A stretch of 64,000 bases of DNA, taken from the NCBI RefSeq assembly GCF_000515415.1, contig NZ_KI911783.1, forward strand, positions 1,850,392 to 1,914,391. The letters are read 5' to 3'. Shown piece after piece: positions 11,642-45,567 of this stretch; position 1 is the stretch's first letter, and every line of letters starts with the position of its first letter. The position numbers and the translations under genes are program-made. Below the pieces are notes generated by a model. It did no database searches and was not told the DNA's origin. It saw only the letters and a list, made by a program, of their open reading frames with translations. The stretch is from Bradyrhizobium sp. WSM1417. Its GTDB lineage: Bacteria; Pseudomonadota; Alphaproteobacteria; Rhizobiales; Xanthobacteraceae.

Positions 11642-12018
11642 GGCCTGCCGTCCTCGGCGATTGCCGCCGAATTGCGCGCATTTCGTCTACGATATCGCAT
11701 CGTCAATTGCGAACAGGGCCAACGTGCTGTGAGTTCCTCAGCGAGCGAAGGCGCAGCGGGTGCCGACAGCGATGCCTGCGGCGGCGTGAGTTGGTTGAGG
11801 CGAATGCGAAGATCAATGGTGGTTCAGAGTATCTAGCCAACATAACGTTCCGCGCATTACCATTACGTCTCCGGGGCATGGACCTGAATTTGTGAGTACT
11901 ATAGTTGCCCATGTCTTCCCGCCTTTGCACAATACTGCGGGGCCCGAGCGGGATCTCTTTTCGGCCGACGCGACGATCTTCAACGTGGCGGCCTTAGGCC
12001 GTGTCGAACGTTGAATTG
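11642..12018. other. No recognisable gene
   Basis: Short frames only, on both strands, without motifs. Confidence 0.4.
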
Positions 12019-12685
12019 CTAACCCAGTAGAGCTTTCATGTTTATCGCGGGGTCTGCGAGAGCCTCTGCCCTGGGGCTAAGCTTCCTACTGATCATAATC
12101 TCGGTAAAACGTATTCCTCTCGCTACAGAGCCCGGCTCCCGAATCCGAACGCGGCCTCGAGGCGTCCGTCGGCGGCTTAGGTAAAACAAGATCTGGCGCC
12201 TTGCGCCGAGGTCTCTGATGACGGGCACTTCTCGTTCCGGACAGAGTCCGAGGATTTGCAGTGTCTGGTCGTATTGATCTGACCCAAAACCAGGGAATGT
12301 CCTCGTAAGGACGGTCTCGCCTAGCATGTTCGTTGCCGCAGCTGCTTTTGCCGCTGCGCGTTGCGCGATGCCTCCAGCCTGATGCGCTTTTTATAGAGGC
12401 GATCCGCAGTCAGCCACCGCCAAAACGTGCGGAACCGAAGCCGCGAGCATCTCCCCGGAACGATGCCTTCGTCGACCGCTAATCCGGCCGTTTGCTCAAG
12501 CTCGATATTCGGCGTCGCACCGACCCCAACGATCGCCAAATGGGCCAGATGCGAGCGACCACCTGCAATCACCACGTTGGAACGTCCTTCGCTGACATCG
12601 ATACATTCGGCGACAGCGCCTGGTTCGATGCGCACGCCAGAACGTTCGTGCTTGAGCGCGATCAGCTCAGCATAGAAGCTGGCAC
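12019..12685 (-). pseudogene. Ferredoxin reductase (FAD pyridine nucleotide oxidoreductase) remnant
   Basis: The right half encodes SHLAHLAIVGVGATPNIELE and GLAVDEGIV, the NADH/FAD domain junction of rhodocoxin/MocF-type ferredoxin reductases; the left half carries the C-terminal blocks PYEDIPWFW, SDQYDQTLQILGLC and ADPAINMKALLG, in two frames. The first 180 or so residues, with the FAD-binding GxGxxG, are missing: the fragment ends abruptly near 12685, where the divergent Rieske relic begins. It would have passed electrons from NADH to the Rieske ferredoxin. Confidence 0.7.
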
Positions 12686-12942
12686 TGCCGGAAGAGGCCG
12701 TTCGCTTCGATGCTGGCAGCCGCACGTTTGTATTGTTCGCTCTCCGGGAGGAGGCTATTCCGCAATCGACGGCCATTGCTCTCACGAGAAAGTCCATCTT
12801 GCGGTGGGGGATCATCGGGTGCCCTAAGCATTTCGGGACCTTCGATTACCGAACCGGCAAGTCGCGTGCACTGCCACCATGCGTCGACCTGCGCAGCTAC
12901 GAGCTAAAGGTCGAAAACGGCACCGTCTTCATCGATATCTAA
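12685..12942 (+). pseudogene. Rieske [2Fe-2S] ferredoxin remnant, MocE-like
   Basis: Joined across frames, this reads EEAVRFDAGSRTFV, VRSPGGGYSAIDGHCSHEKV, HLAVGDHR, then CPKHFGTFDYRTGKSRALPP and ends YELKVENGTVFIDI. The Rieske ligands Cys-x-His and Cys-x2-His are all present. At least one frameshift lies between the ligand pairs near 12820 and another near 12735. The layout (CTHEKVHLADG, CPKH-G-FDY-TG) is that of MocE, a ferredoxin of rhizopine catabolism, so it may have served an oxygenase now lost. The original start is not identifiable. Confidence 0.7.
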
Positions 12943-12999
12943 GCGTAGCCAAAGGCCGGAATGCAAGACAATGTCGAAGCAGAGTTTTTATGCTACAGT

Positions 13000-13510
13000 C
13001 ACTTTGGGCCATGGAACTGCGCGAGCCCGATGGGGTCGAACGTTCTTCGACCATAATATCGCGATGGTCCGGGAGGCGGGCTCGACGGCATCAGCACCTG
13101 ATGCACTGATCCCGCGCGTCGCCCCGATTGCGTGTGCCCTAGCCGGCTCAGGACTTGCAGTCGAGTGCATGTGCTTTCACGATCGATCACTTGAAAGCTG
13201 CCATTGATCTCGCTCGGCAGCTCGAGGTCTTCCATCTCCAGCCTGACATCCGCCCGCGCCGTATCGCCGACTGTATACCGTCGCGGGAAGGTGGGATCAG
13301 GGTGACGCGAGATGCGGGCATACCGATCTACTCCGAAACGCATCGCAATAGGATGACGACGGATCTACTCGGATCAGGTTCCAGAGATGTGCATGCTAGC
13401 TGATCTCTCACACTTCCTGCTCGGCCGCGTATTCTGGTATCCGAACTCGGACGAAAACGAAGCGCTGGTGCGGCAGGTACTCGAGCGCAACGTCGCAACC
13501 GCCTCGCCCT
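13000..13510 (+). pseudogene. Sugar phosphate isomerase/epimerase (xylose-isomerase-like TIM barrel) remnant
   Basis: Pieces in several plus-strand frames match this family in order: LDGIST, then RVAPIACALAGSGLAVECMC, LEVFHLQPDIRPRRIADCIP, DAGIPIYSETHRNRMTTDLL, and LADLSHFLLGRVF with SDENEALVRQVLE. At least three frameshifts. Such enzymes often act in sugar or polyol catabolism, in line with the GH88/AraD1 block upstream. Confidence 0.65.
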
Positions 13511-14043: not shown

Positions 14044-14141
14044 TAGTGAGAAGCGGAACCACGTCTTCACGCCCTGGCGGTTAATACATTCGGCTGTGAT
14101 GAACCCGGGACATCGGTTCTTTGAATAAGAGGGCTAGTAAC

Positions 14142-15730
14142 ATGTCCGGTGTTGCCGCTGCGTTTCTATGCTCTTCAAACAACTCACGGGCGACGGTTTA
14201 TGATCGCCTGGAGCACATGATTTCGAAACTTGCGCTTCGTGGGCAGGCGGGTGTCGGCGTTGCGGCGTTCATGCACAACGAAGGGATTCGATATGCGAGA
14301 GCGCTTCGATCATCATGCGGCTCCGCGCGCATTGAGCCCTATCAACAGGATCCAAATTTTAAGCCCCATGTTGCAATCGCCCAGATTCGTAGCCGATGCC
14401 GCGGAACCAGCGATGGCGGCGAACTTCCGCCACTTCACCACAATGCGGGCACCACCCACCATTTGGCAGTTTCGTTGGATGGAGCTTTGGTCAATGCCCG
14501 TGAACTCAGGGGGGAATTGCTTGCCCATGGCTATAGGTTAGGCGGCAACACAGATGCCGAGCTCTTGCTCAAATGGATTGAACGCACTTGTGAAAGAGAC
14601 TATTGGCGGCACGGTCTGCCCGTTAGTTATGAAAACGTCTTGCGCGACGTTGATGACCGTATTGATGGTGCTATTAGCGCGCTCTTACTGGACGGTGAAG
14701 GAACTCTAGTTGCATACCGTAATCGACGTGGTTTGCGACCATTGGAAACTATGCAAACAGATGACGGCTTCTTGCTATTTGCTTCGGAAAATTGTGCCTT
14801 CGCCGGTCTAGAGGGTAAGACGCAGCAAGTCTTACCGGGACACATCAAGTATGTAGACGGAAAAACGGGGGGCTGTGTTGATCGTTCCGTGAGCAACAGG
14901 CGACACAAAGCCAAACTCTGCGCCTACGAATCTCTTTATCTGGGAAATCCAAAAACGTCGGTTGAAGGCCAATCGCATTTCGAAACCCGGTACAACATCG
15001 GTGTCGCCCTTGGTGGCCTGGTTGCGCACCGATTGCAAGGAGAGCCAGGCTCCCCGCTCACAATCGTTTCCTCGATGCCGCATGCCGGAGGACCGTACGC
15101 TGATGGTCTGTTTGCATCTCTCGCCGAATACGGCCTGTTCGCCCAGCGTCGGGAAGTAGTCGCAACGCAATTCCTTCAGCGAACTCTCATCGGTACACCC
15201 AGCCAGCGAAAGTCTCGCATTGCTCAAAAGTACCGCATCTCGGGACCTAGCGTTGCTAAAACCACGATAATCATTGCCGACGAGGCCCTCATTCGGGGCG
15301 ACACCAGTCAGGCTGTTACGAATATGTTGCTAGCCGCTGGCGCCAAAGCCGTACATTGGGCGATCGGTTCGCCGCCATACTGGCTCCGAACTACTATGGC
15401 ATGGGCATCGATACACTAGATGAGTTGGCATTCTGGCAGATATGGAAACGATTGCCACCCGAACAGCGCACGCAAAGCCTTCGCTTTCACAAGATGGAGC
15501 CACAAGTTCTCAAAATCATCGAAAGTCGTATCGCCACGTCCATCAACGCAGCCACGATAACGTATCTGCCGTTTCCACTTCTAGTGTCGCTGTTGCCAGG
15601 CAGCCAAGACGGCGTCGATTTGTCACCGTTTACATTTGAGATGCCAACCCCTGCGGGGCAGCGGCGCGCGAATGAGAACTTGCACGAATTAGTGGCCGAT
15701 CTTCCCTATTCGGAATCAATCCCTGCTTGA
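14142..15730 (+). pseudogene. PurF-like amidophosphoribosyltransferase homologue, Ser for catalytic Cys, one frameshift
   Basis: About 528 residues in two frames. The N-terminal part is a glutamine-amidotransferase (Ntn) fold (LALRGQAGVGV, NARELRGELLAHGYRLGGNTDAELLL, RNRRGLRPLE, FASENCAF); the second half is a PRPP-type phosphoribosyltransferase fold with RTLIGTPSQRKSRIAQKYRI and the loop IIADEALIRGDTS (Asp380, Glu381) in place of the usual VVDDSIVRGTT. True PurF starts its mature chain with Cys1-Gly; here the ATG at 14142 (AGAGGG upstream) gives Met-Ser-Gly-Val, so Ser sits at the nucleophile position. One missing base near 15375 breaks the frame at GSPP/LAPNYYGMGIDT. By eye more AT-rich than its neighbours. 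Probably a specialised paralogue, not housekeeping PurF. Confidence 0.75.
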
Positions 15731-25021: not shown

Positions 25022-28000
25022 ATGACTGTGCGCGAACAGCTCTTTGCCCTGTTACGCAACCTGCGGTGGATGATTGTCCTGTCGGTATCCATCTCAATAT
25101 TGCTGTATCTGCCAGATCAGATCCAGGAGCTCTATCGGATAGCCGCTGACGACATTGGTTGGGTGACCGTCAGGGAGTTCGCCGCCTTGGGCGTGATTGC
25201 CGTAACGATCTGGGCAGGCGCGTTTCAGCTCACAACTGCGTCCCTGCCGGAAATCCCCCACGCTACGGGTCGTTTGGCCTTTTACATAAGACTTGCGCCC
25301 ATTTTGCTCGGAGCGCTGCCGATAATCGCCGCGACGGCAGGTCAATTCGCGTCGCGCCCAACGAAAAAGGTCGGGGAGATCGAGGAAGTCGGAAGTATCT
25401 TTCGCATTCAGGACCACGCGCTCGCGTTTGAGCGTAACATGCTGCTCATCCTCGCAATCGCCATGCTGATCATGCTCGTCTGCTTCGTGATATTTACGTG
25501 GCGGATGGGATCAAGAGATCGATCGATTGATCTCGCGAGCCGCGCCAACAATAGCTACTTCATCCGCTACAGGTTTCTCGCGCTCACGATCGGGGGCATC
25601 GTCCTGTTGACAACAGCATTCATCCTGCTGCCGGATAGGCTCGCACAATTTTTCGGATCGTTCGGCGTGATCGCTCTCTTTGCGGTTTGCGTCGTTGGTC
25701 TCACCGTCCACTTCGCCCTACTGACGATCAAGTTTACCTTTCCATTTATACCGGTTGTCTTTGGCGGCTTGTTTCTGCTTGCCTCCTTGTTGGGAGGCGA
25801 CGACCACGAACTGCGCACCGTCGCTGAAGCAAACAGCCTGCCGAAAGACGCGCGCGTGTCTGCGGTCGCGGCGTTCCGTGAGTGGCTCTTACAGAAGCCG
25901 CGGCTGGAAGAAGCGAGGAGGCTCGGCGAATATCCCGTCTTCATTGTCGCGGCTCAAGGAGGAGGTATCTATGCTGCCAATAATGCGGCGCGGTTTCTTG
26001 CGAGGATGCAGGATCTCTGTCCGGCATTTCGACAGCACCTTTTTGCGATAAGCGCTGTCTCCGGAGGCAGCGTCGGTTCCGCCATCTTCGCCGCTGCGCT
26101 CCACGCCGAGAATGCGTCCCTTGATTCGAATGCCGCCGACGGAAAGACATGTCCGAAAATCGCGGACTTTCTGGCCGGTGTCGGACGAGTCCAAGATATT
26201 GATGCCCCCGGCCCAGTGGAGCAGCGCGTTGCAAGCGTCTTGGCGACCGATTTTCTGTCGCCTTTGGTTGCCGGCTTCCTCTTTACCGATTTCACTCAGA
26301 TGTTCTCTCCGGTCGCGATCCCGGCCTTCGATCGCGCGCGTTTTCTGGAATATACTTTGGAGAACGCCGGCGACAGAATGCTCGACAGCCACAAGGGCAC
26401 CGGCGATCAATCCAATCTGCTAAGGGCCGACTTTCAGTCCCATTGGACAGCCGGCAACAACATGCCGGCGCTGTTGTTCAACACGACAGATGCGGGCAGC
26501 GGCAAACGGGCCGTCATCTCTCCCTTCGATTTCGATCCGCTACACCCGAATGACACGGACCTGTGTATTCTCGCGAGCCTCGAACGCGTGACAACGGGGG
26601 CCGACCAAACGGTCAAGAGCCACTCAGTTCGGATTCCGCTCAGCACAGCCGCATTCACGAGCGCGCGGTTTCCATGGGTGACACCGGCAGCGACCGTCTC
26701 ATTGAAGAATGACTGCATAACCACCAACCCGCAGGCGCGCCTAGTGGATGGCGGATATGTGGAGAATTCGGGGATCGAGACCGCGCTCGACCTGATTGAG
26801 AAGCTTAACAGCATCAAGGGCACTTCTGACGCGCCAAAATTCCGGATCTACCTGCTGTCCCTGGTGAGCGGGCAATTCGGTGATCATGGTTCATTCATGT
26901 TCGGTGAGCTCATGGAGCCGGTACGCGCGCTCTTGAGCACGCGAAGCTCCCGAACCTATGTCGCGCTCCATCATGCAACCAGCATCGATCGTCGGCCGGA
27001 CGCGGAAGTCACCCCCAGCGTGCAGCGTTTTCCAGCCTTCGGCCGAACCGACATAACAGGCTTGTTCTATAGCCTTCCGCTCGGGTGGACGTTGTCCCAG
27101 CAGACCGAAGATATCATCTCACTGAGCAGTGGCCGGTTTTGGGACTGCGTGCCGAAGGACGACTTCGATCAGTCCCGCCAGCGGCAGAGCAACGCTGATT
27201 GCCTGCAAGTGAAGTTGTTTCATCTTCTGAATGGATCGGTCGCGTCCGCATTTGAAACGCTCAAAGACGCCAAACTCGCACAGGCTGCCTACGCCGACGA
27301 GCTAGCCAAGGAATATCGACCAACTCCAAAGATCAAGCCACAGCCATTGCTTGCGTGTTATGAGAGCAATTGGTTGCAAAAGCGCGGGTATGAGAAATAT
27401 CAGGATAAAGTCGCATCCTACGCGCACCAGCTGACTGAATCGAGCAAGGACCATTCGCCGGCCCCTTCACCTGTTCCGCCATATCGCAAGAGCTATATGG
27501 CATATTTTCAGACCGAGCAGGTCAAAGCCTTGTTGCAAGAATGGGATCGCGTCGAGGAGACGGATCCCCGGATCCTGGCCTATATTCTGGGATCAGTCTC
27601 CTACGACAGCTCCGACTTTACGCGCAGCAGCGAGAACTTCTCTTACAGCGCGGTGTCTCAACTCCCGCAGAAATGGCGCGATCGCATCGACAAGAACAAC
27701 GCAAAGCTTGTGGCCGCAAACAGGCCGGCCGTCGACGCGAACTCATTGCTTAACCATCCCAAAGAGTTGGCCAACTTCGTTCTTGGCTACGACGGCAACC
27801 CGTTCGGAAATCAGCCCGGAACGGATGACGGATGGCTGTTTCGTCCGCGAGGAATGTATCAATTGGTCGGGCGCGAACAATATCTGGAAGCACAGAGGCA
27901 AACGCAACAGCTTGACGAGTTGGAAGGACTTGATCTGCTAACGCTTCCCGACGCCCTAAGGGATGCAAAGATTGCAGCCAAGGTGACGTTCGCTCACTTT

Positions 28001-28222
28001 CGACTCCATCCTTACGAAAACCATCAGACACTGTTCGAGTTGCTGAAAGATCGTGCGAAGGATTGGACGGCCGTGCGTGCATTGCAGACGGACATGGAAC
28101 ATGCCCCGGCTGACGGCGCGCGCGTCAATGCAAGGAGTGAGATGTTCCTCGGCTGTATCGAGGAGGCGTTGCATCCGACGAAAATCAAGACCCTGCAAAG
28201 CCAGTTCTACGGTGACGAATGA
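25022..28222 (+). CDS. Large membrane-anchored patatin-like phospholipase
   Basis: 1066 residues. The first 260 or so hold about six membrane segments (for example LRWMIVLSVSISILLYL, MLLILAIAMLIMLVCFVIF, FGVIALFAVCVVGLTVHF). Then a patatin domain: oxyanion hole AAQGGGIYAANN, nucleophile elbow SAVSGGSVGS (GxSxG), and the catalytic Asp in LVDGGYVENSG, so the Ser-Asp dyad is complete. The last 400 residues are not recognised. Patatin-like enzymes hydrolyse acyl esters of phospholipids. It heads a three-gene unit with a one-haem secreted protein and a di-haem peroxidase. GGGAAATG precedes the start (GAGGGAAATGATGCG). Confidence 0.85.
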   Translation: MTVREQLFALLRNLRWMIVLSVSISILLYLPDQIQELYRIAADDIGWVTVREFAALGVIAVTIWAGAFQLTTASLPEIPHATGRLAFYIRLAPILLGALPIIAATAGQFASRPTKKVGEIEEVGSIFRIQDHALAFERNMLLILAIAMLIMLVCFVIFTWRMGSRDRSIDLASRANNSYFIRYRFLALTIGGIVLLTTAFILLPDRLAQFFGSFGVIALFAVCVVGLTVHFALLTIKFTFPFIPVVFGGLFLLASLLGGDDHELRTVAEANSLPKDARVSAVAAFREWLLQKPRLEEARRLGEYPVFIVAAQGGGIYAANNAARFLARMQDLCPAFRQHLFAISAVSGGSVGSAIFAAALHAENASLDSNAADGKTCPKIADFLAGVGRVQDIDAPGPVEQRVASVLATDFLSPLVAGFLFTDFTQMFSPVAIPAFDRARFLEYTLENAGDRMLDSHKGTGDQSNLLRADFQSHWTAGNNMPALLFNTTDAGSGKRAVISPFDFDPLHPNDTDLCILASLERVTTGADQTVKSHSVRIPLSTAAFTSARFPWVTPAATVSLKNDCITTNPQARLVDGGYVENSGIETALDLIEKLNSIKGTSDAPKFRIYLLSLVSGQFGDHGSFMFGELMEPVRALLSTRSSRTYVALHHATSIDRRPDAEVTPSVQRFPAFGRTDITGLFYSLPLGWTLSQQTEDIISLSSGRFWDCVPKDDFDQSRQRQSNADCLQVKLFHLLNGSVASAFETLKDAKLAQAAYADELAKEYRPTPKIKPQPLLACYESNWLQKRGYEKYQDKVASYAHQLTESSKDHSPAPSPVPPYRKSYMAYFQTEQVKALLQEWDRVEETDPRILAYILGSVSYDSSDFTRSSENFSYSAVSQLPQKWRDRIDKNNAKLVAANRPAVDANSLLNHPKELANFVLGYDGNPFGNQPGTDDGWLFRPRGMYQLVGREQYLEAQRQTQQLDELEGLDLLTLPDALRDAKIAAKVTFAHFRLHPYENHQTLFELLKDRAKDWTAVRALQTDMEHAPADGARVNARSEMFLGCIEEALHPTKIKTLQSQFYGDE

Positions 28223-28323
28223 GAAGCTTGAGCCGCCGGTCCGTTTTGCTTGTTGAGTGAACGTTGCGCCGAGATTTCGACGACTGATGTTTGAACGTTT
28301 TAGGTCTCAAAGGGGGATTGCCA

Positions 28324-29697
28324 ATGACGGCAAGGGGTGAAATGTGCGGCTCAAGTGTTCGTCGACGGCTTGCAAGACTGTTTGCGGCGGGGGTGGTGTT
28401 CGTCACGGCTTTGGGGGTGGGAGCGGCTCCGGCGCAAACGGCCGCAAAGCCGCTTTCGCCCAACGATGTGTCCATCCTCTTCCCTTCACCGCAGTCGTCG
28501 GCTGATCTGGCCAATCTGATCGCGGCATCCGATCTCGCCGGCCCCATAGGAGCTCCGCAGCGACTTTTTTCCGACGCAGACTTTGCACGCTTTATCGCCA
28601 ACGCCGAGCATCCCGAGCGTCCAGGAGTGCCAGACTCAGGCGTACGCCACATCCAGCTGCCCGATGCCGTGAAAAAAATCGACGCCTGGTTTGTTGCCGG
28701 CATCAGAATCGACCCGGGCGCGCCGGGATTGTCGCCGGATGTCATTGCCCAGTTTGGCCGACAGCCGCAAATCCGCCTTATCATTCAGCCGGTAACCAAT
28801 GGACCAGACGGATTCAAAGTTCATGACACCGCCGGCCACCTCATCTTTAACTTTAGCCTCGACCCGGATCCGCCTCTCGACGGTTGTGCGCCGTTTTCGC
28901 GGTTCAAGCCGGATGATGAAGCCTTCAAGGCAATCATTCGTGACATCGCGACCTTGCGCGATCAACTTGCAGCCGGACATTTTGGCAATGTCAAAATCTC
29001 GACTGCTGGTGATCTGAATGTGCATCCGGGCCTTGTTGGGGCATCGGCAAAGGCGTTTCGTGATGCACTCAAGGCCCTACTTGAGAAGCATCTTTCACCG
29101 CAGCGCCTCAACACCATGGCTGTCATGGGCATCTCGCCGCCCGAGCCCTGGATTTTCGTCTCGATGTTAAGGGTCCCGCAGGCTGGCTTAATACCCGTGC
29201 CGGGCCCGACGCTTGATGGCGTACACGCAGCGCAGATGTTCAGCATCATTGGCGGAAAACACGTCATCCCGCAGCCGATTACCAACAATCAGAGTCCGAT
29301 CACCTGTCGTCACGCGGCATTGCAGAATCCGCCTTTAGCAGTGGCCGATCGCAAGGGTGTTTCGACATCCGAGTTCATTGATGGCAACGTGCCCAACAGT
29401 CGCATACTCGAAATCGTCAATATCATTGCCGACCCGAAGAAAAGCCACTTCTTCAATACGGATTGCGTCAGCTGTCACACCGAGACGGCGCAGCCACTCG
29501 TCAGGAAAGTTGCAAACTTCGCGGTGCCGGGCGTGGACCGGGCGGTCTTGCCAAAGGAAAACTGGAATGTTCGCAATTTCGGTTGGTTCCCATCGTTCTT
29601 GCAGGGCGGACCGGCGGCGGCGACGATAACGCGGCGCGCGGCAGCCGAGACGGCCGACGTGGTCGCCTTCATCAATATCCAATTGCTGAACAAGTAA
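28324..29697 (+). CDS. Secreted protein with single c-type haem motif, function unknown
   Basis: 457 residues from the ATG at 28324, which has AAAGGGGGATTGCC upstream; the earlier start at 28291 has none. Signal peptide LARLFAAGVVFVTALGVGAA, so periplasmic. The first 370 residues match nothing I recognise. Near the C-terminus is one CVSCH haem-binding motif (Cys381-His385) in FFNTDCVSCHTETAQP, followed by NWNVRNFGWFPSF. It lies 101 bp after the patatin stop and 73 bp before the di-haem peroxidase, so it is likely cotranscribed and could donate or accept electrons for that enzyme (inference). Confidence 0.75.
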   Translation: MTARGEMCGSSVRRRLARLFAAGVVFVTALGVGAAPAQTAAKPLSPNDVSILFPSPQSSADLANLIAASDLAGPIGAPQRLFSDADFARFIANAEHPERPGVPDSGVRHIQLPDAVKKIDAWFVAGIRIDPGAPGLSPDVIAQFGRQPQIRLIIQPVTNGPDGFKVHDTAGHLIFNFSLDPDPPLDGCAPFSRFKPDDEAFKAIIRDIATLRDQLAAGHFGNVKISTAGDLNVHPGLVGASAKAFRDALKALLEKHLSPQRLNTMAVMGISPPEPWIFVSMLRVPQAGLIPVPGPTLDGVHAAQMFSIIGGKHVIPQPITNNQSPITCRHAALQNPPLAVADRKGVSTSEFIDGNVPNSRILEIVNIIADPKKSHFFNTDCVSCHTETAQPLVRKVANFAVPGVDRAVLPKENWNVRNFGWFPSFLQGGPAAATITRRAAAETADVVAFINIQLLNK

Positions 29698-29770: not shown

Positions 29771-32026
29771 ATGGGGAGACGTTCTTTCGGCTCTCGCCTT
29801 TATTCCTGGGTGAGGCGCTGGCCTCATGTCGCCGGGCTGTTGTTCGCAATCGTCGTCGTCGCGATTGTGTCGGCCGGCTTGGTGTATTTCGCGCCTGAGA
29901 AGGTTCGCGATGCAGCTCTTAAAATCAAGAACGACGCAAATCTGCTCGCTCAACTGCTGCCTGCTACCTTGCCGGAGCCGTCGAAAATCGAAAGCGCCTA
30001 TTGGCTGCCGCAGAATTGGAGCTCGCGCCAGCGTTACTGGTTTCACCACACCTCGCAGGGGACGGCGACCATACCTGTTCCTTATCAATGGTTCCTGGCG
30101 TTGGAGCGCCCAGAGCTGTCCTTCTCTTACACGAGCTTGACGGACGACGACTATCTGCGCCGCCTTGGCTTTATCCCAAGTCCTAGCTCAAAGGACTTCG
30201 CCCGTAACGCGCCCTCATACGGTTATCGCGAGGATGGGTCGAATGCGGGCGGTGGGAGCCCCGGTTGGACTCCAAACCTACCCGACAATCCAAATGGCTT
30301 GCCTGTCGGGTTTGCCATCCTTAAGGGCGGCGTCGACCCGGCGACGGGAGGCTCGTACGAAGATCAGATCGGATTGACCTGCGCCGCCTGTCATACGGGG
30401 CATCTGGAGTACAAAAATGTCAGCCTTAGGTTCGACGGTGGGCCGGCGATGGTCAACCTCGGGGAGGTTGAACGAGTCGTCGGGCTGTCTATCGGCTACA
30501 CGCTGATTTTGCCGTGGCGGTTTGAGCGTTTCGCCAGCAGGCTGGAGCAGATCAAAGGTCAAGGCGTTGATCGAAAGCTGCTTCGAAGCGATCTGGACCT
30601 TGCACTTCAAAAGATCAAAAAACAAAAGGCGCAGGGCGATAGGCTTTTGACGGAACAGGGAGTTGCGGATCTCGATGAAGGTTTCGGTCGACTTGACGCG
30701 CTGAACCGGATCGGGAACCAGGTTTTCTATAGCAACCTAGTCGATCCCCTGACCGGCGAACTCGCCGATCCACTCCTCAAGGGCAACTTAGCCCGCCACG
30801 ATGCGCCCGTGAGCTTTCCGCCGATCTGGGACACGCCGTATTTCCTGTGGGCGCAATATGACGCCTCCGTTCTCAACGAACTTGTTCGCAATTCAGGCGA
30901 GGCGCTCGGTGTCAGCGCGAAAATCAATATGGCCGCGCCCGCGCCCGGACGACCGCTTTTTGCCTCATCGATACATCTATCCGACATCGCGCGGTTCGAA
31001 GAGCTTCTGCGCGGCGCGGATCCTTTTTCGGCGGCCGATGCAAGCGGCAGAAAATTTACCGGGCTCGTAGCGCCCAAGTGGAAGGACGCTCAGGAAAAAT
31101 TCCGGAGCGACCCAGCATGGGGCATTGACGAAAAGCTCGTTGAAAAAGGCCGCGATCTCTATCGCGCGCACTGCTTTGAATGCCACCGAGGCCCGGTCAA
31201 CGATCCTGCCTTCGACAAAAGATGGCCGGGGGATTCGTTCTGGAAGCCGGAGAACCCCGATCGCTCCGCCAAGAACGAGAAGAATTGGGTGGACATAGGG
31301 GGGCGCCACTATTTCAATGTGGTCCAGATGCCGGTCACGGCGATTGGTACCGATCGTCAACAATCCGATGTCCTCACCACGCGCCGCGTTCACCTACCCG
31401 AGTCACTTGGATTGAGTCCAGTCGATGACCTCAACAAAGCCTGGGCTTGCGGCCTTTCAGCGAACAAAGGGGCAGATCCTCTTTTCGTACTCGCACTCAT
31501 GGACGTGGTCGGAAAGACAATCGACCAATGGCTGATTGCGAACGGCACCTCCGAAGAAGCCAAGCAGCAGATCTGGGGACCCAGGAAGAATTGTCAAAAC
31601 CAACGAGTCTACGTTGGGGCCCGAGCGAACCATAACGGAAAGGACGAAGATGTTCTTGCGCTCGAACCTCAATATCGGGCGCGCCCGTTGGATGGTGTTT
31701 GGGCGACAGCTCCGTATCTGCACAACGGGTCCGTGCCGACGCTGAGACACATGTTGTTGCCGCAGAAGGAGCGGCCAACGTCCTTCTGCGTTGGCAGCCG
31801 CGAATTCGATCCGGTCAATGTTGGGCTTGTTACGAAAACACAAGCGAGCGACGCCTGTGCGGCCGGTCTGACGGAATTCAATGTGTCGCTGCTTGGGAAC
31901 AGCAATCGTGGACATTCGTTTGAAGGCAAGGAAACCGACTTAGCGAAGCTGCCGCCTGGTGTCATCGGGCCAGAATTGACCGACGCCGAGCGGCGCGCAC
32001 TTGTCGAGTATCTCAAGACGCTGTGA
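29771..32026 (+). CDS. Di-haem cytochrome c peroxidase-like protein (RoxA / fatty-acid diol synthase type)
   Basis: 751 residues with an N-terminal membrane anchor (VAGLLFAIVVVAIVSAGLVYF) and a periplasmic body. Two haem c sites: CAACH at 204-208 and CFECH at 468-472. The C-terminal block RARPLDGVWATAPYLHNGSV is the family signature. The length, the long insert between haems and the early PYQWFLALE region fit the RoxA branch rather than the short MauG/CcpA enzymes. Known members of this branch cleave rubber (RoxA) or oxygenate oleic acid (Pseudomonas aeruginosa PA2077/PA2078). Next to a lipase, a role in oxidising released acyl chains is plausible but unproven. Confidence 0.85.
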   Translation: MGRRSFGSRLYSWVRRWPHVAGLLFAIVVVAIVSAGLVYFAPEKVRDAALKIKNDANLLAQLLPATLPEPSKIESAYWLPQNWSSRQRYWFHHTSQGTATIPVPYQWFLALERPELSFSYTSLTDDDYLRRLGFIPSPSSKDFARNAPSYGYREDGSNAGGGSPGWTPNLPDNPNGLPVGFAILKGGVDPATGGSYEDQIGLTCAACHTGHLEYKNVSLRFDGGPAMVNLGEVERVVGLSIGYTLILPWRFERFASRLEQIKGQGVDRKLLRSDLDLALQKIKKQKAQGDRLLTEQGVADLDEGFGRLDALNRIGNQVFYSNLVDPLTGELADPLLKGNLARHDAPVSFPPIWDTPYFLWAQYDASVLNELVRNSGEALGVSAKINMAAPAPGRPLFASSIHLSDIARFEELLRGADPFSAADASGRKFTGLVAPKWKDAQEKFRSDPAWGIDEKLVEKGRDLYRAHCFECHRGPVNDPAFDKRWPGDSFWKPENPDRSAKNEKNWVDIGGRHYFNVVQMPVTAIGTDRQQSDVLTTRRVHLPESLGLSPVDDLNKAWACGLSANKGADPLFVLALMDVVGKTIDQWLIANGTSEEAKQQIWGPRKNCQNQRVYVGARANHNGKDEDVLALEPQYRARPLDGVWATAPYLHNGSVPTLRHMLLPQKERPTSFCVGSREFDPVNVGLVTKTQASDACAAGLTEFNVSLLGNSNRGHSFEGKETDLAKLPPGVIGPELTDAERRALVEYLKTL

Positions 32027-33724: not shown

Positions 33725-34609
33725 TTAATCGCGTGCGACTGGCGCTCTGTTCAACGCCATTGGCACGACATGCAGGCCGACGCCCAGGAGAACGATCGCA
33801 GCCGATGTCAGTACCTGAAAATTCAGATGTTCTCCTAGCACTAAGCCAGCCAGAGCGACCCCGAACACTGGGATCAAGAGTGCGATGGGGGAGGTCGAAG
33901 CCAGACCAATGGAAGTAATGGCCCGGCCCCAAAGAATCTGTGCCATGGCGAATGACGCAATAGCCACGTAAGCCACGGCCAGCCAGCCGGCGAGCGGCGC
34001 TTGTGTCAGCGCTTCGCCCACCGCTGGGGCAGCGGGCCGCATCAGCGCACGCGCAACCCAGACGGCAGGCAGACAGATCAACGCACTCGCACACTGCAAA
34101 CGGATCACCGTTTCAGACGCTTGCTTGAGCGTCATGTTTGCGATAGCCCAGCCGGCAGCCGAGAGCAGGCATATGGCACTCGCGACCAACGGCGCCTTGC
34201 TGCCACCCGTGGCCAGCACTCCGATAAGGCCGACTACGCCCAAGGCGCTTCCAACAATCGTGGTCGTCCGCACCGGTTCCCGGAGCATCAGGAAACCGAG
34301 AGCCAAGGATATGAAGACCTGAAACTGGATCAGCAACGCCGCGAGGCCGGGGGATAAGCCCAGATCGATTGCCAATGTCGACAGCAGATATTGGCCGATG
34401 CCAGAGCCTAAAGTGTACGTGAGCAGGGTTCGCGTAGGCACACGCGGCCAACCGACAAGAGGGACCAGCATCGCTACGATCGAGAACCGCAACGCGGTCA
34501 GCAGATATGGATCGAAGTGGTCAAGTGCAAGTCGCACCGCGACGAAATTGCCGCCCCATAAGCCAGCAGCCCCAATCGCGCTTGCATAGGCACTGCGCTT
34601 GAGGGTCAT
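33725..34609 (-). CDS. DMT-superfamily (EamA) transporter, probable metabolite exporter
   Basis: 294 residues with about ten membrane helices in two EamA repeats: repeat 1 starts AIGAAGLWGGNFVAVRLALD and contains LALGFLMLREPVRTTTIVG; repeat 2 contains AQILWGRAITSIGLASTSPI and FGVALAGLVLGEHLNFQVL. The Glu-Pro and Gly-Glu after the fourth helix of each repeat are typical. EamA/RhtA proteins export amino acids and small metabolites. Its start overlaps the stop of the short unknown gene upstream (ATGA), and both run divergently from the ArgG-dioxygenase fusion, for whose product it may be the exporter. Confidence 0.85.
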   Translation of the reverse strand: MTLKRSAYASAIGAAGLWGGNFVAVRLALDHFDPYLLTALRFSIVAMLVPLVGWPRVPTRTLLTYTLGSGIGQYLLSTLAIDLGLSPGLAALLIQFQVFISLALGFLMLREPVRTTTIVGSALGVVGLIGVLATGGSKAPLVASAICLLSAAGWAIANMTLKQASETVIRLQCASALICLPAVWVARALMRPAAPAVGEALTQAPLAGWLAVAYVAIASFAMAQILWGRAITSIGLASTSPIALLIPVFGVALAGLVLGEHLNFQVLTSAAIVLLGVGLHVVPMALNRAPVARD

Positions 34610-34899
34610 GTTCGCGCGTCCTGCGAGCGCAAGGCAACCGAAGCGGAAACATCAGCGGTCGTGCGATACTCGGCGTTGGCTCGAGACCGAATCGGTAGGC
34701 AGGTAAAGACTTCAACCTTCAAGCCTTCCAACAGCTCAAGCACGGACTGCCTCAGTAAATCGCCTCTCCGTTTGGAATCGGTGCTCGTAGATCGCGCCAT
34801 AACTGCGGCCCGAACTCGGGGCCCTATTAGCCAATCTGAACAGTCCCTGCTGTTGACGTAGCGCTTTTGCAGTCTGCTCATATTGAGGCGATGGTCCAT
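34606..34899 (-). CDS. Short protein of unknown function, overlapping the exporter start
   Basis: 97 residues from the ATG at 34899, which is preceded by GAGG eight bases upstream; starts at 34947 (MTAAIDISF) or 35046 are possible but have poorer sites. Content: MDHRLNMSRLQKRYVNSRD, LIGPRVRAAVMARSTSTDSK, LELLEGLKVEVFTCLPIRSR. The middle is basic and probably helical; no membrane segment and no family recognised. The ATGA overlap with the exporter indicates translational coupling, which argues that it is real. Confidence 0.45.
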   Translation of the reverse strand: MDHRLNMSRLQKRYVNSRDCSDWLIGPRVRAAVMARSTSTDSKRRGDLLRQSVLELLEGLKVEVFTCLPIRSRANAEYRTTADVSASVALRSQDART

Positions 34900-34947
34900 A
34901 AACAATTCCTCATCGAGAGGAAATGATATGTCGATTGCGGCTGTCAT

Positions 34948-35287
34948 AGAAGCGTCGTGCACTCGTTTTTGAATGATGCATGTTGACGAGAGATGACCTC
35001 TCGAGTCAAACGACGCGTTTTGGTAGGTTGCATGACAATAATACAAGGCAGATATTCTTTCTCTGTGGAGTCTCGACTGAGACTTTCCTACGTCGATCGG
35101 CGCACAGAAGAAGCGGGATGTTGAGATTGTGCGGTTCGCTGCGAGACGATTTCTAACGTTTGTCGTGCGATATAGCCAAGGGCTGCCGATGTTTGGAGCT
35201 TTGGCTCGTTGCCTAGATCAACGACGTTCCACACCAGAACAGCCCTTGTAGCTGCTGCGCTGCTGGTCAAGATGAGAGCAATCACAG
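34948..35287. promoter_or_regulatory. Divergent promoter region of exporter and fusion gene
   Basis: 340 bp between divergent genes. I looked for sigma-54, NifA, FixK, nod-box and tts-box patterns and found none that fits. It presumably holds both promoters. Confidence 0.4.
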
Positions 35288-37273
35288 ATGACCGTCAGAA
35301 AAATTCGATGTTTCCAAGACCTCATCTCTATTCCTGACAAGAGCGCGCCAGTCGTGACATTGTTCAGCGGCGGCCTAGATAGTTCGTACCTCCTTTGCTT
35401 CTTGTATGAGGCGGGCTTTACGAGTGTAACGGCGCTTTGTGTTGACCTCGGCGAGGCTGTCGAAGTTGAGGCGCTGGAGACGACCGCCAAGCGATTTGGC
35501 GCGGAATTGCTGATCGAAGACCGTAGGGTGCAGTTTGCAGACCGATACGTGAAGCCAGCCCTTAAGGCCCACGCGAAATACCTCGACATCTACCCCGTGA
35601 GTTCATCTCTCTCTCGCCCCTTGGTCGCGCAACGCGCGGTTTGCGTCGCGTTGGAGCGCAATGCGGGCGCCGTGCTGCACACCGCGAACCAGTCTCAGAA
35701 CAGCCTGCGGCGCTTAAATACGGCGATATCTGCCGAAGACTTTTTAGGGCTTTTCGGCAGCCCTTACGAATACAGCGCCTTGTCGCGCGAAGACAAGGCG
35801 AGGGCGTTGGCGAGCTACGGTTTGACGTATTACGCCGGTCGAAAGCTTAGCGGTGACGCGAACATCTGGTGCCGAGAATTTGAATCGGGCCCATTGGACA
35901 ACCCCGAAGCTTTTACGCTCCCGGAGGAAGTTTTCACTTGGTCACGGCGCCAACCTGACGTTGGCCCTTGCTCAGTTTCCCTCGGCATCCAGGAGGGTGA
36001 ACTCGTCCAGGTCGACGGTGAAGCTGTGGCGTTTGCGGATGCAATTGCTCACCTGAATGCGCTGGTCGGCTCCTACGGCTTTGGCCGATTTTTAGGATTG
36101 GAGCACCTGGATGATGGCGAGAAGGTTCTGGAGGTGCGTGAGGCCCCAGCTGCGTTCATTTTGATGCAGGCCCTTCGGCACCTGGAAACGGCAACCTTGT
36201 CTGCGAATTCCATCATTCTGAAGCAAGCTTTAGAGAGAAGTTGGACGCTCGAAGCCGTGGAAGGGAGATGGAACTCGGACGTAAAGGCGGCCGCGGAAGC
36301 AGGCATATTGTCGCTGGCTCAACGCGTGACGGGAACGGTCCGCTTTGACATCGATCATCAATCGTGCCTGCCAAACTCAATTCGCGCTGACCGCCCGCTT
36401 TACCTCACTAATCGTGATGCTTGGGAAATCGAAAAGGCCCGCGAGCGCGGCACGCGTTCGCGGGCTGATTTTTTGCGGAATTACTTCGACGAGACTCCCA
36501 AAAGAAACCCAAAGTCGCGCTCAATCGAAACTCCCTTGATATCGGCTTCTATGGCTATCGAAAAGGTTGGCACCCCGCTTGTCGATGCATTGACTAGCGA
36601 TGGGTACTGGGTAGAACGCGGCGCGAAGAACTTCGAACGCTGGGACTTCTACGATCCTCAGAGTTGGCATGATTTTGCGACGTGCTGGGATGATCTTCTG
36701 CTCGACGAGTATATGCGAGACGGGGGAACATATCGCTTTCGCCGCTATAGTCAGCTTTTCTACAGCGCGAATGACGGCCATCTAGCTCTGCTTCCTCACG
36801 CTCCCTACGAACAGTCGGCGATGATCAATCGGCTCAACGGAGGGTTCCAACGGCACTTCGAGGCGATCGACGGGCGATTTCTGGAGAACAGGTTTTTCCA
36901 AGGTCTGATGCGGTGGATGGGCTCTAGCTACAGTGCGGCCTCCGGCCATCTCAACTGGAATATCAAATTGCACCCGTACCGTATTGTCGCGACCGAGAGG
37001 CCTGGGGAGCCGAGTCCCGAGGGTCTGCATCGCGACGGCGTCGACTACATCTGCTCGTTCATGGTGCGGAAATGCAATGTCAACGGTGGCGAAACAGTTA
37101 TAACTGATGCGAACGAAAATGAACTGGTCCGTTTCACGCTGGAGACGCCGGGCGATATTATGATTGCTGATGACAACATCGTCATGCACGGTGTGAGCCC
37201 GATCCAAATGATTAACAGGAAAAAATCAGTTGCTTACCGTGACGTGCTGGTCGTCGCCTTCACCAACGACTGA
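35288..37273 (+). CDS. Fusion: argininosuccinate-synthase-like domain + 2OG-Fe(II) dioxygenase (PF10014 type)
   Basis: 661 residues. Residues about 20-385 are an ArgG-like ligase: PP-loop TLFSGGLDSSYLLCF (SGGLDS at 27-32), VALERNAGAVLHTANQSQNS, and SGDANIWCREFESGPLDNPE, which parallels the ENLWGRSIEGGPLEDP block of ArgG. Residues about 400-661 are an amino-acid dioxygenase of the L-isoleucine dioxygenase group: iron ligands His581 and Asp583 in GLHRDGVDYICSF, His634 in IVMHGVSPI, and the 2-oxoglutarate Arg651 in AYRDVLVVAF. Both active sites look complete, with no frameshift. Likely it ligates aspartate (or another amino donor) to a ureido-type amino acid and hydroxylates substrate or product; the actual compound is unknown. 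A divergent exporter and a downstream GNAT gene flank it. Confidence 0.82.
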   Translation: MTVRKIRCFQDLISIPDKSAPVVTLFSGGLDSSYLLCFLYEAGFTSVTALCVDLGEAVEVEALETTAKRFGAELLIEDRRVQFADRYVKPALKAHAKYLDIYPVSSSLSRPLVAQRAVCVALERNAGAVLHTANQSQNSLRRLNTAISAEDFLGLFGSPYEYSALSREDKARALASYGLTYYAGRKLSGDANIWCREFESGPLDNPEAFTLPEEVFTWSRRQPDVGPCSVSLGIQEGELVQVDGEAVAFADAIAHLNALVGSYGFGRFLGLEHLDDGEKVLEVREAPAAFILMQALRHLETATLSANSIILKQALERSWTLEAVEGRWNSDVKAAAEAGILSLAQRVTGTVRFDIDHQSCLPNSIRADRPLYLTNRDAWEIEKARERGTRSRADFLRNYFDETPKRNPKSRSIETPLISASMAIEKVGTPLVDALTSDGYWVERGAKNFERWDFYDPQSWHDFATCWDDLLLDEYMRDGGTYRFRRYSQLFYSANDGHLALLPHAPYEQSAMINRLNGGFQRHFEAIDGRFLENRFFQGLMRWMGSSYSAASGHLNWNIKLHPYRIVATERPGEPSPEGLHRDGVDYICSFMVRKCNVNGGETVITDANENELVRFTLETPGDIMIADDNIVMHGVSPIQMINRKKSVAYRDVLVVAFTND

Positions 37274-37552
37274 TCCCTCAACGCTGACGAGGGCGATCAT
37301 GTGGTTGGCGCTTGCTCGCTGGTTCCCCTCGGCTGTTGTCCCTCTGGCATTTCGGGCACTATCAATCTGTAACGCTTCCGTTGCTCTCTGAGGAGAGCGT
37401 ACGTTCATCGACCTCATCCTGGGGTGGAGGGATCACCGGCATCGGGTTCTCGTCGTGGGTCCTCGATCCCTTGTCAGCACGTCGAATCAGGCTACGCGAT
37501 CACTCCTCTGGTGCATGGGCAAGCTCCCGACCAACCTGCAACCTGAGGGCAT

Positions 37553-38026
37553 TCAAGTGGAGAGGTCGAGGCTCATGAACTGGTTGTGCGGGCTTTCCTG
37601 ATAGTCCGCGAACCGCTCACAGGAAAGGAAGCCCGCGTTGCGGTAGAGCGCGACCGCAGGAGCGTGCAGCGCTGCGGTACCGGTCTCGAGGCTGAGGCGT
37701 GCATACCCTCGGTTGCGGGCTTCAGCAATGATGTGGTGTAGAATAGCGCGACCGACCCCGGTCCTCCGTGCGGCGGGCGAAGCGCGCATCGACTTCACTT
37801 CTCCATGCGTGCGATCCAGTTGCTTGAGAGCACCGAATCCAACCAGCACATGACCCTGCCAGGCCGTCCAGAAAGTAACGGCCGCGCCCGAAAGGCCAGT
37901 CGCGTCCAGCGCTCGCGCGTGCTCGCCCATGACGCTGCGCAGCTCTCTTAAGTGATATGCTAACAAGTCGGCGACATATGGCGCCGTCGGATCGTCCTGC
38001 CTGATTTCCACTTTACGCCCCGTCAT
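37553..38026 (-). CDS. GNAT-family N-acetyltransferase
   Basis: 157 residues from the ATG at 38026 (38050 is an alternative). GNAT marks: VTFWTAWQGHVLVGFGALKQ, MRASPAARRTGVGRAILHHI (the acetyl-CoA loop RxxGxG), ARNRGYARLSLETGTAALHA and ALYRNAGFLSCERFADYQES. The layout is like that of small amino-acid or peptide acetyltransferases of the YhhY/PhnO kind. It converges on the ArgG-dioxygenase gene 280 bp away, so it could acetylate its product for self-protection or processing (inference). Confidence 0.82.
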   Translation of the reverse strand: MTGRKVEIRQDDPTAPYVADLLAYHLRELRSVMGEHARALDATGLSGAAVTFWTAWQGHVLVGFGALKQLDRTHGEVKSMRASPAARRTGVGRAILHHIIAEARNRGYARLSLETGTAALHAPAVALYRNAGFLSCERFADYQESPHNQFMSLDLST

Positions 38027-38349
38027 TGTACTCAACCAACCAGCCGGCACTAGCGGCAGTTGCGGATATATTCAAGGTCATTCTTCATTGTGCAGCCAGG
38101 ACTGGCATTGTGATCGAAAGATCGCATCGCATCGGTCCACGCGGCGAACGCCGATCGTGGTCGCCAGTAATGGCCAAATTCGACCGAGTAGTCAGGAACA
38201 AGACGCGCTCCCCGACCCACGATCTTTGGATCCAAGCGGCTAGAGAATCTCAAGCACGATCTCGACTGATCGCGCAAGCTGCCTAGCCGGTGGTTTCTTC
38301 TGCACAGATGACTGACGCAGATCACAATCGTGCAAACTCCTCGAGAGTG

Positions 38350-40240: not shown

Positions 40241-40560
40241 ATGCACGCTTTGACACGAATGATGCTGGTCATGGCGCTAACCGTTTGCTCGGTCATTTCG
40301 GCGGATGCCGCCGGGCTCGAGAAGGCGAAATTGAGGATCGCGGCGGGATCACAGATCCTCAACTCTATGCCTCTCAATTCGGTGTGAAGCTTGGTGCATT
40401 CAGAGACCAAGGCCTTGACGTTACTATCGAGAACTTCCACGCCGGTGGCTCAAAAAGCGCTGCAGGCGCTGGTCGGCGGTTCGATCGACGGGACAGTCGG
40501 CTTCCAGAATCACGCCATTCAGATGCAGGCGCAGGGCTGGCGTTCGGAAAATTTCTGGAG
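40241..40560 (+). pseudogene. ABC substrate-binding protein (SsuA/NMT1 type) N-terminal remnant
   Basis: A signal peptide (MHALTRMMLVMALTVCSVIS, start 40241) leads to EKAKLRIAAGSQILNSMPL, then in a second frame YASQFGVKLGAFRDQGLDVT, IENFHAGGSK, and in the first again QALVGGSIDGTVGFQNHAIQ. This is the first lobe of an NMT1/SsuA-like periplasmic binding protein. It is cut off where the 4Fe-4S repeat gene begins. With the permease relic before it, a whole importer has decayed here. Confidence 0.7.
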
Positions 40561-40626
40561 CTCGCGACCTCCGACAAAATTTGGCAAGCCGTTGCTGCGG
40601 CGTGCCTAACCTATGTGGGCAGGACA

Positions 40627-41379
40627 ATGATTGATGATATCGACAAGGCTCTTGACTGGGAGGGCCACCGGCTTGACTGCGCATTGTGCGAGCATCTCGC
40701 ACTGAGCGAAACCGGCGGATGTCGGCTCAAGCACGCCTGCGTCAACGAACGTTGTCCCGGCAGTATCGAGAGGTTCTTCGAGCGGAATCCGGATCTCGCC
40801 GACGGCTATCTCAGCCATCCGCATTGTGAGGTAAGGGCGATCGCGGCGAAGTTTGCGAAGGTCTCTCTGCTGCCGTCGCTGATCAATGATCCCAATGAAA
40901 AGGTGCAATGGAATGCGATACTTCGCCTGCCTAGAAGCTACGCGTTGCAATTACGGAAGCATCCGCGTCCCGAGCTGAGGAGGCGGGTAGCGACCCTGCT
41001 CGACGGTGAAGAATTGCTTTCCATGGCCTCAGACGAATATTACTATGTTCGCCTTGTCGTCGCGAGTCGGATCGAGCCTATACTGCTCCCCCAAATGATG
41101 AATGACGAGGAAGCCGAGGTCCGCCGTGTTGTAGCACGGCGCATACCAAATGAATGGTTGCTCGGCATGATCGACGATCGTGACGCGTCGGTAAGACTGG
41201 AGATAGCCCAACGACTATCTGTGCAGGTTGTGTCCCTGCTGCAGCATGATCCTGACTGGCGCATCCGCTACGAGGTCGCAAGCCGTGCGCCAATGGCTCA
41301 GATCTTTAGCCTTGTCCATGACCCGCATAGTCTCGTACGCGAAGTCGCGAGCTCGCGGATTGCGGAAGACCGCCGCTGA
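40627..41379 (+). CDS. 4Fe-4S leucine-rich-repeat-variant (LRV) protein
   Basis: 250 residues from the ATG at 40627 with GGGCAGGA just before it; the open frame upstream is the binding-protein relic and not part of the gene. The N-terminal domain has the cluster cysteines in CALCEHLALSETGGCRLKHA and CVNERCP. Then come about seven 24-residue LRV repeats with patterns such as HPHCEVRAIAAKF, NDPNEKVQWNAILRL, DEEAEVRRVVARRI and DDRDASVRLEIAQRL. The same architecture is known from the Azotobacter LRV protein and from nif clusters of rhizobia; its job is not established. Intact among wreckage. Confidence 0.85.
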   Translation: MIDDIDKALDWEGHRLDCALCEHLALSETGGCRLKHACVNERCPGSIERFFERNPDLADGYLSHPHCEVRAIAAKFAKVSLLPSLINDPNEKVQWNAILRLPRSYALQLRKHPRPELRRRVATLLDGEELLSMASDEYYYVRLVVASRIEPILLPQMMNDEEAEVRRVVARRIPNEWLLGMIDDRDASVRLEIAQRLSVQVVSLLQHDPDWRIRYEVASRAPMAQIFSLVHDPHSLVREVASSRIAEDRR

Positions 41380-45551: not shown

Positions 45552-45567
45552 TGGCACGGTCATTGCT
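45552..45567 (+). promoter_or_regulatory. Sigma-54 (-24/-12) promoter of redoxin gene
   Basis: TGGCACGGTCATTGCT fits TGGCACG-N4-TTGCW at every fixed position. It lies 53 bp before the redoxin ATG. Confidence 0.85.

Follow-up and report, generated by a model that had tools for sequence, protein, structure and literature searches.

A predicted nitrile synthetase fused to a 2-oxoglutarate dioxygenase in Bradyrhizobium sp. WSM1417, and its recurrence beside exporter genes in other bacteria

Few ATP-dependent enzymes that form nitriles are known, according to the excerpted part of a preprint (PMC13060819), in which several of them are jointly said to act on nucleoside bases, polyketides and the side chains of amino acids. 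The amide-interacting residues of one of these, ArtA, are given there as Q146, S197 and D199; that the words 'side chains of amino acids' apply to ArtA and NitB is our own reading of the excerpt. ArtA appears to be of fungal origin, judging from its near-identity to Aspergillus proteins such as P0092. Among the PF10014 family of Fe(II)/2-oxoglutarate dioxygenases, BelL and HrmJ cyclopropanate free L-6-nitronorleucine, whilst the carboxylate analogue is only hydroxylated, as far as the excerpted part of PMC10764440 goes. Relatives of both enzyme types are joined in one gene of a 64,000 nt stretch of the Bradyrhizobium sp. WSM1417 genome (contig NZ_KI911783.1, positions 1,850,392 to 1,914,391), hereafter the window. 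The fused ligase-dioxygenase gene occupies 35288-37273 on the forward strand as an open reading frame (ORF) of 661 aa. No description of the fusion, or of the gene cassette around it, was found in the literature searched, which was short on subscription papers. A first-pass annotation knew of no characterised enzyme with this architecture, which holds for the fusion in that literature but not for the ligase half, as it has a solved relative in ArtA.

The ArtA-type nitrile synthetase domain (residues 1-390; 35288..36457, +) consists of an N-terminal PP-loop part, with the motif SGGLDS at S27-S32, and a C-terminal part with the ArgG fold. It is followed by a linker of about residues 391-430 (36458..36577, +), predicted to be disordered on the basis of predicted local distance difference test scores below 50 at 388-427, and by the PF10014 dioxygenase domain (residues 431-661; 36578..37273, +), carrying H581, D583, H634 and R651. 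Pfam matches to the protein (PF00764 at 22-149, PF20979 at 188-375 and PF10014 at 465-656) bear out the earlier description of a PP-loop ArgG-like domain joined to a PF10014 dioxygenase, and all the active site residues named for the two halves were verified in the sequence. A sequencing artefact is unlikely to be the source of the fusion because another strain has a 661 aa fused copy (P0001) that is 98% identical. In comparisons with Bradyrhizobium sp. SSBR45G (locus L016) and plasmid p155_2 of Bradyrhizobium sp. 155 (L023), the ratio of nonsynonymous to synonymous substitution rates was 0.07 and 0.25, respectively, for the ligase, 0.10 and 0.21 for the dioxygenase, 0.12 and 0.13 for the neighbouring exporter gene and 0.17 and 0.23 for the neighbouring GNAT acetyltransferase gene; these values, ranging from 0.07 to 0.25, indicate purifying selection on all four.

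The ligase domain scores 520.7 bits against the NCBIfam model NF038212 (argG_rel), above the curated cut-off of 425, and is 50% identical to ArtA (PDB 9leh and 9lei) over residues 3-384. When model residues 3-384 are aligned with ArtA residues 12-393, an offset of nine, Q137, S188 and D190 fall at the ArtA amide-contact positions. These three residues are invariant in all 137 rows of a family census, composed of the window, the best 120 of 787 matches and 16 loci, with some duplicates and with six rows lacking the PP-loop region. By homology to ArtA, therefore, the ligase half very likely makes a nitrile.

The first-pass annotation had instead proposed an ArgG-like condensation of citrulline, or an analogue, with aspartate, and a subsequent hydroxylation that would yield a guanidino or ureido amino acid. 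Although the domain matches both PF00764 and PF20979, it falls short of all five listed ArgG equivalog profiles (195.8 bits against a cut-off of 334, 166.7 against 512, 159.7 against 268.2, 80.6 against 603 and 18.2 against 657), whereas a separate, genuine argG lies elsewhere in the WSM1417 genome (880.6 bits, cut-off 657). Compared with 42 ArgGs taken from the searched genomes, the ligase differs at N134, Q137, S139 and R284, where every one of the ArgGs has T, G, D and Y, respectively. The T and D, absent from the ligase, are the aspartate contacts of human ASS1 (T119 and D124), and the tyrosine corresponds to human Y282. The aspartate-pocket changes are family-wide, with N134 in 130 of the 137 rows and S139 in 130, the other seven having T. 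The ligase thus lacks pocket residues that are invariant in ArgG, so that by the standard set in the first-pass annotation itself the ArgG proposal is largely refuted, and no argininosuccinate lyase is annotated in six plasmid neighbourhoods, the gene tables of which are incomplete. We regard ArgG condensation as highly improbable. The changes lie at the amine-donor site of ArgG, a position that may be dispensable for a dehydrating enzyme.

A further alternative is an ArgG-like activation of an amide or ureido group by the ligase, followed by joining to an amine other than aspartate, to form an amidine or guanidine that is then hydroxylated. The fold and PP-loop are those of ArgG, and N138, R142, S188, D190 and E272 match residues fixed in 42 of 42 ArgGs; however, the domain resembles ArtA far more closely, for which amide dehydration is the only reaction reported, and retains the amide contacts throughout the census. 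No recurring amine-donor gene was noticed in the annotated plasmid neighbourhoods, although no systematic search was made, and we consider this alternative unlikely.

The dioxygenase half scores 203.5 bits against PF10014 (gathering cut-off 23.1), and no PF10014 match other than the fused protein was found in the WSM1417 genome. The iron-binding H-x-D...H motif and the 2-oxoglutarate-binding arginine, formed by the four residues given above, are in register with 3pl0 and HrmJ. The solved sequence relatives are 3pl0 (uncharacterised), HrmJ (9dqp), another HrmJ (9dq0), BelL (8jms), 8w8h and the isoleucine 4-hydroxylase IDO (6lnh). By analogy with BelL and HrmJ acting on 6-nitronorleucine, the domain might close a cyclopropane or aziridine ring, with a nitrile standing in for the nitro group. 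The mere hydroxylation of the carboxylate analogue counts against such a reaction, as does an identity of about 26%. A nitrile also acidifies the neighbouring carbon far less than a nitro group does, and ring closure therefore seems quite unlikely.

Gene arrangements were compared by running tblastn with a set of cassette proteins on 20 loci in which the ligase gene is uninterrupted (the window, L016-L028 and L064-L069). A dioxygenase is present in 16: fused in four (the window, L026, L066 and L067), encoded by the next gene in 11 and separated by one gene in L069. An EamA exporter accompanies 14 of these 16 pairs; it adjoins the pair in 13 cases, and in L023 it is about 8 kb distant, with insertion sequences in between. 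The window exporter and those of ten of the other 13 loci were confirmed as PF00892 matches; the exporters of L016 and L023 were assigned through identities of 79% and 93% to that of the window, and L067 gave the same tblastn result as L066. As L066 and L067 look alike but are counted separately, subtracting one leaves 15 of 19 loci paired and 13 of 15 pairs with an exporter. Vibrio halioticoli (L068), Streptomyces indiaensis (L022) and the proteobacterial loci L064 and L065 share the gene order ligase-dioxygenase-exporter. In Salmonella diarizonae (L018) and Burkholderia cenocepacia (L069), a nonribosomal peptide synthetase (NRPS) takes the place of the exporter, whereas in M. huakuii (L025) the pair is accompanied by both exporter and NRPS genes, together with a MATE gene. 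No relative of the Salmonella pair was found in E. coli genomes by blastn. Chance adjacency of EamA to the pair is unlikely, given that the WSM1417 genome contains 41 matches to the EamA domain, most genes accounting for two of them. This recurrence supports the earlier proposal of two steps on one small molecule followed by export.

The ligases of ten other loci were scored against NF038212, eight exceeding the cut-off and two (L020 and L021) falling just below it (417 of 425). Scores were also obtained for the window ligase (L030) and for those of L064-L067 (L060-L063), whilst the ligases of L023 and L025-L028 are named argininosuccinate synthase-related by their records, rather than by this score. 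Ten of 85 plasmid records were fetched (H1-H8, H11 and H53); H9, H13 and H14, with a transposase under the match, and weaker ArgG-like matches, H10 and H12 among them, were left out. A fragment (L029) and a dioxygenase-only locus (L070) stand outside the count. L029, on Rhizobium tropici CIAT 899 plasmid pRtrCIAT899b, contains a degraded ligase gene, matching in two pieces and annotated as a 681 nt fragment. In H12 (NZ_CP134205.1, Streptomyces sp. BB1-1-1), the match that contains an ArgG-like gene (34.8% identity) also has an annotated dioxygenase of the TauD/TfdA type, another 2-oxoglutarate-dependent family, and may represent a parallel pairing.

Ligase and dioxygenase are separate genes in L016 and L023, and related strains have a stop codon and a second start at the linker; the window junction differs by small indels, which put both halves in one frame. 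Fused relatives include P0001, P0009, P0010 (Mesorhizobium abyssinicae), P0015-P0019, P0021 and P0022, in addition to Rhizobium sp. 007 (L026) and L066/L067. When the fused state (12 rows, set against rows with split genes or no dioxygenase) was mapped onto a 59-row ligase tree, at least six changes were required, and well-supported branches alone force four of these, so that there must have been several gains or losses of the fusion; the tree was a quick one that gave long-branch warnings, and L064 is labelled on it as lacking the dioxygenase that it has. The fungal proteins P0063, P0065 and P0092 are nested in an otherwise bacterial, largely alphaproteobacterial clade of the same tree.

Taken together, we consider it probable that the fused protein is a bifunctional tailoring enzyme, which forms a nitrile on, and oxidises, one amino acid, the product then being exported. 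The substrate of the N-terminal domain would be a free amino acid, with glutamine, asparagine and their hydroxylated forms as the likeliest candidates; its side-chain amide oxygen would be adenylated by ATP, and elimination of AMP would leave a nitrile, with no second amine being joined. The C-terminal domain would act on that amino acid too, oxidising its carbon chain, most probably through hydroxylation, in a step that could either precede or follow nitrile formation. Export of the product would fall to the EamA protein, as gene linkage suggests, and an NRPS probably uses it in some of the related clusters. The arrangement points to a so far undescribed nitrile amino acid made for release.

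Several observations weigh against this interpretation. S188 and D190 are also found in 42 of 42 ArgGs, such that only Q137 and its neighbours discriminate between the families, and the ArtA facts come through a citing preprint, known here in excerpt, with a phrase that spans several enzymes and does not fix the exact substrate (PMC13060819). The dioxygenase is about 20-30% identical to its characterised relatives, so neither substrate nor reaction outcome can be read from homology, and the products of BelL and HrmJ are described in the excerpt of PMC10764440 as cyclopropanes, not alcohols. The locus sample is biased, 16 of the 20 having entered through a fused query or being the window itself, and the plasmid loci came mostly from the top of a query-coverage ranking, which favours both halves; a search with NF038212 alone, free of that bias, nevertheless gave four genomes other than that of the window, all four of which have dioxygenase and EamA genes (L064-L067), though L066 and L067 look alike. 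No dioxygenase was found in four of the 20 loci (L017, L019, L020 and L021), whilst the plasmid matches H52-H59 have a dioxygenase without the ligase, H53 (L070; 41% identity) lying in an NRPS cluster of Streptomyces for which no ligase is annotated. Finally, the window exporter has no blastp match (E<=1e-3) to five plasmid cassette exporters, and EamA proteins seem to have been recruited more than once. The loci with one partner alone would also suit a model in which the domains act on separate molecules and fusion merely secures co-expression; however, the repeated switches between fused and adjacent forms, and co-occurrence in 16 of 20 loci across phyla, make this very unlikely.

One related locus offers a hint as to the product. 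In S. diarizonae L018, a full-length seryl-tRNA synthetase gene (11986-13374, +; 476.6 bits) lies beside NRPS, ligase, dioxygenase and phosphopantetheinyl transferase genes, whilst a higher-scoring, presumably housekeeping, copy (612.5 bits) is separated from it by about 176 kb of the contig. The copy beside the cluster looks like self-resistance; if it is a resistant form, the product at this other locus may resemble serine, which would fit a β-hydroxylated nitrile amino acid. A more speculative outcome, which we rate as unlikely, is oxidation of the carbon next to the nitrile, giving a cyanohydrin amino acid that releases hydrogen cyanide and an amino-acid semialdehyde, or a cyano-cyclopropyl amino acid were ring closure to prevail. 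If true, symbiosis islands and plasmids would carry a new, mobile pathway that makes either cyanide or a strained nitrile amino acid, with a role comparable to that of rhizobitoxine. From the repeated linkage of an ArtA-type domain to a dioxygenase and exporter in several phyla, bacteria would be expected to make a class of nitrile amino acids that are free and oxidised, some loci for which are on legume-symbiosis replicons. Genes now annotated as argininosuccinate synthase, or as related to it, thus become candidates for a definite reaction, with the fused protein as a single-gene test case.

The neighbouring genes are arranged largely as first annotated. The EamA/DMT-family exporter gene (33725-34609, -; PF00892 in two stretches, 77.1 bits, cut-off 28.2) diverges from the fused gene, and a GNAT acetyltransferase gene (37553-38050, -; PF00583, 56 bits) converges on it; homologous proteins align only from residue 11 or 14 onwards, which places its probable start near 38026. 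The expectation that homologues would co-occur with these genes is supported for the exporter but not for the GNAT gene, which is 80% identical in L016 and 87% in L023 but was not found in the other 17 of the 20 loci. Linked in three Bradyrhizobium loci alone, it does not qualify as the general self-protection component once suggested. A 146 aa ORF at 34606-35046, previously described as a short gene coupled to the exporter, was rejected as such: it has no Pfam or NCBIfam match, no counterpart in L016 and a match split over three frames in L023. No NRPS was found within 10 kb of the window cassette.

The ligase family is rare. NF038212 exceeds its cut-off in one of 385 genomes of the class and, at the level of the phylum, in five of 398, with the WSM1417 genome counted each time, and the family has no match in 35 other genomes of the genus. 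In WSM1417 the setting is symbiotic: nifH (1,973,796) and the cassette (GNAT end 1,888,441) are separated by about 85 kb, and nodC is at 2.37-2.39 Mb. Four of seven rhizobial or agrobacterial plasmids (L026, L027, L028 and L029) have nifH and nodC over cut-off, whilst L023, A. vitis L024 and M. huakuii L025 have neither; nodC is not found over cut-off in the L016 genome, and is present in G545 and G688, both with the fused form. The cassette is therefore common on symbiosis replicons, as the suggestion of a symbiotic pathway would have it, without being confined to them, and a function unrelated to symbiosis, such as antagonism, is just as possible. A simple pattern scan of 34400-35400 found no sigma-54, NifA or nod-box-like motif, so no NifA or NodD link is shown.

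Across the whole window there are seven sigma-54-like sites with at most one mismatch, against 2.23 expected (seven being reached in one of 100 shuffles); one of them, at 45552, is exact and immediately precedes an ORF of the redoxin family. Other forward-strand genes encode a glutamine-amidotransferase protein (14121-15419), PurF-like but at 113.4 of 350 bits, and possibly another biosynthetic oddity; proteins of 1066 aa (25022-28222) and 468 aa (28291-29697) without Pfam matches at 1e-5 or NCBIfam matches at 1e-10; a 751 aa di-heme cytochrome c peroxidase family protein (29771-32026; NF040606, 416.7 bits, cut-off 150) that also has a cytochrome segment resembling RoxA; and an FeS4-cluster protein with leucine-rich variant (LRV) repeats (40285-41379).

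Compared with known systems, the window ligase differs from ArgG (4xfj, 7k5z, 2nz2 and 1kp3) in falling below the listed cut-offs and in the replacement of the aspartate-pocket positions and one tyrosine. The dioxygenase half, at about 20-30% identity to 3pl0, HrmJ, BelL, 8w8h and IDO, and more distantly related to HilB, is distinguished by its fusion to a ligase. PesC, the nitrilobacillin nitrile synthetase, likewise carries out ATP-dependent nitrile formation alongside hydroxylases, but belongs to a different, asparagine-synthetase-like family and acts on a peptide C-terminal carboxylate, according to the excerpted part of PMC13060819. ArtA, grouped there with NitB, likewise has the ArgG fold and the three amide-contact residues; whereas it stands alone, the window version is a bacterial domain fused to a 2-oxoglutarate dioxygenase and accompanied by an exporter.
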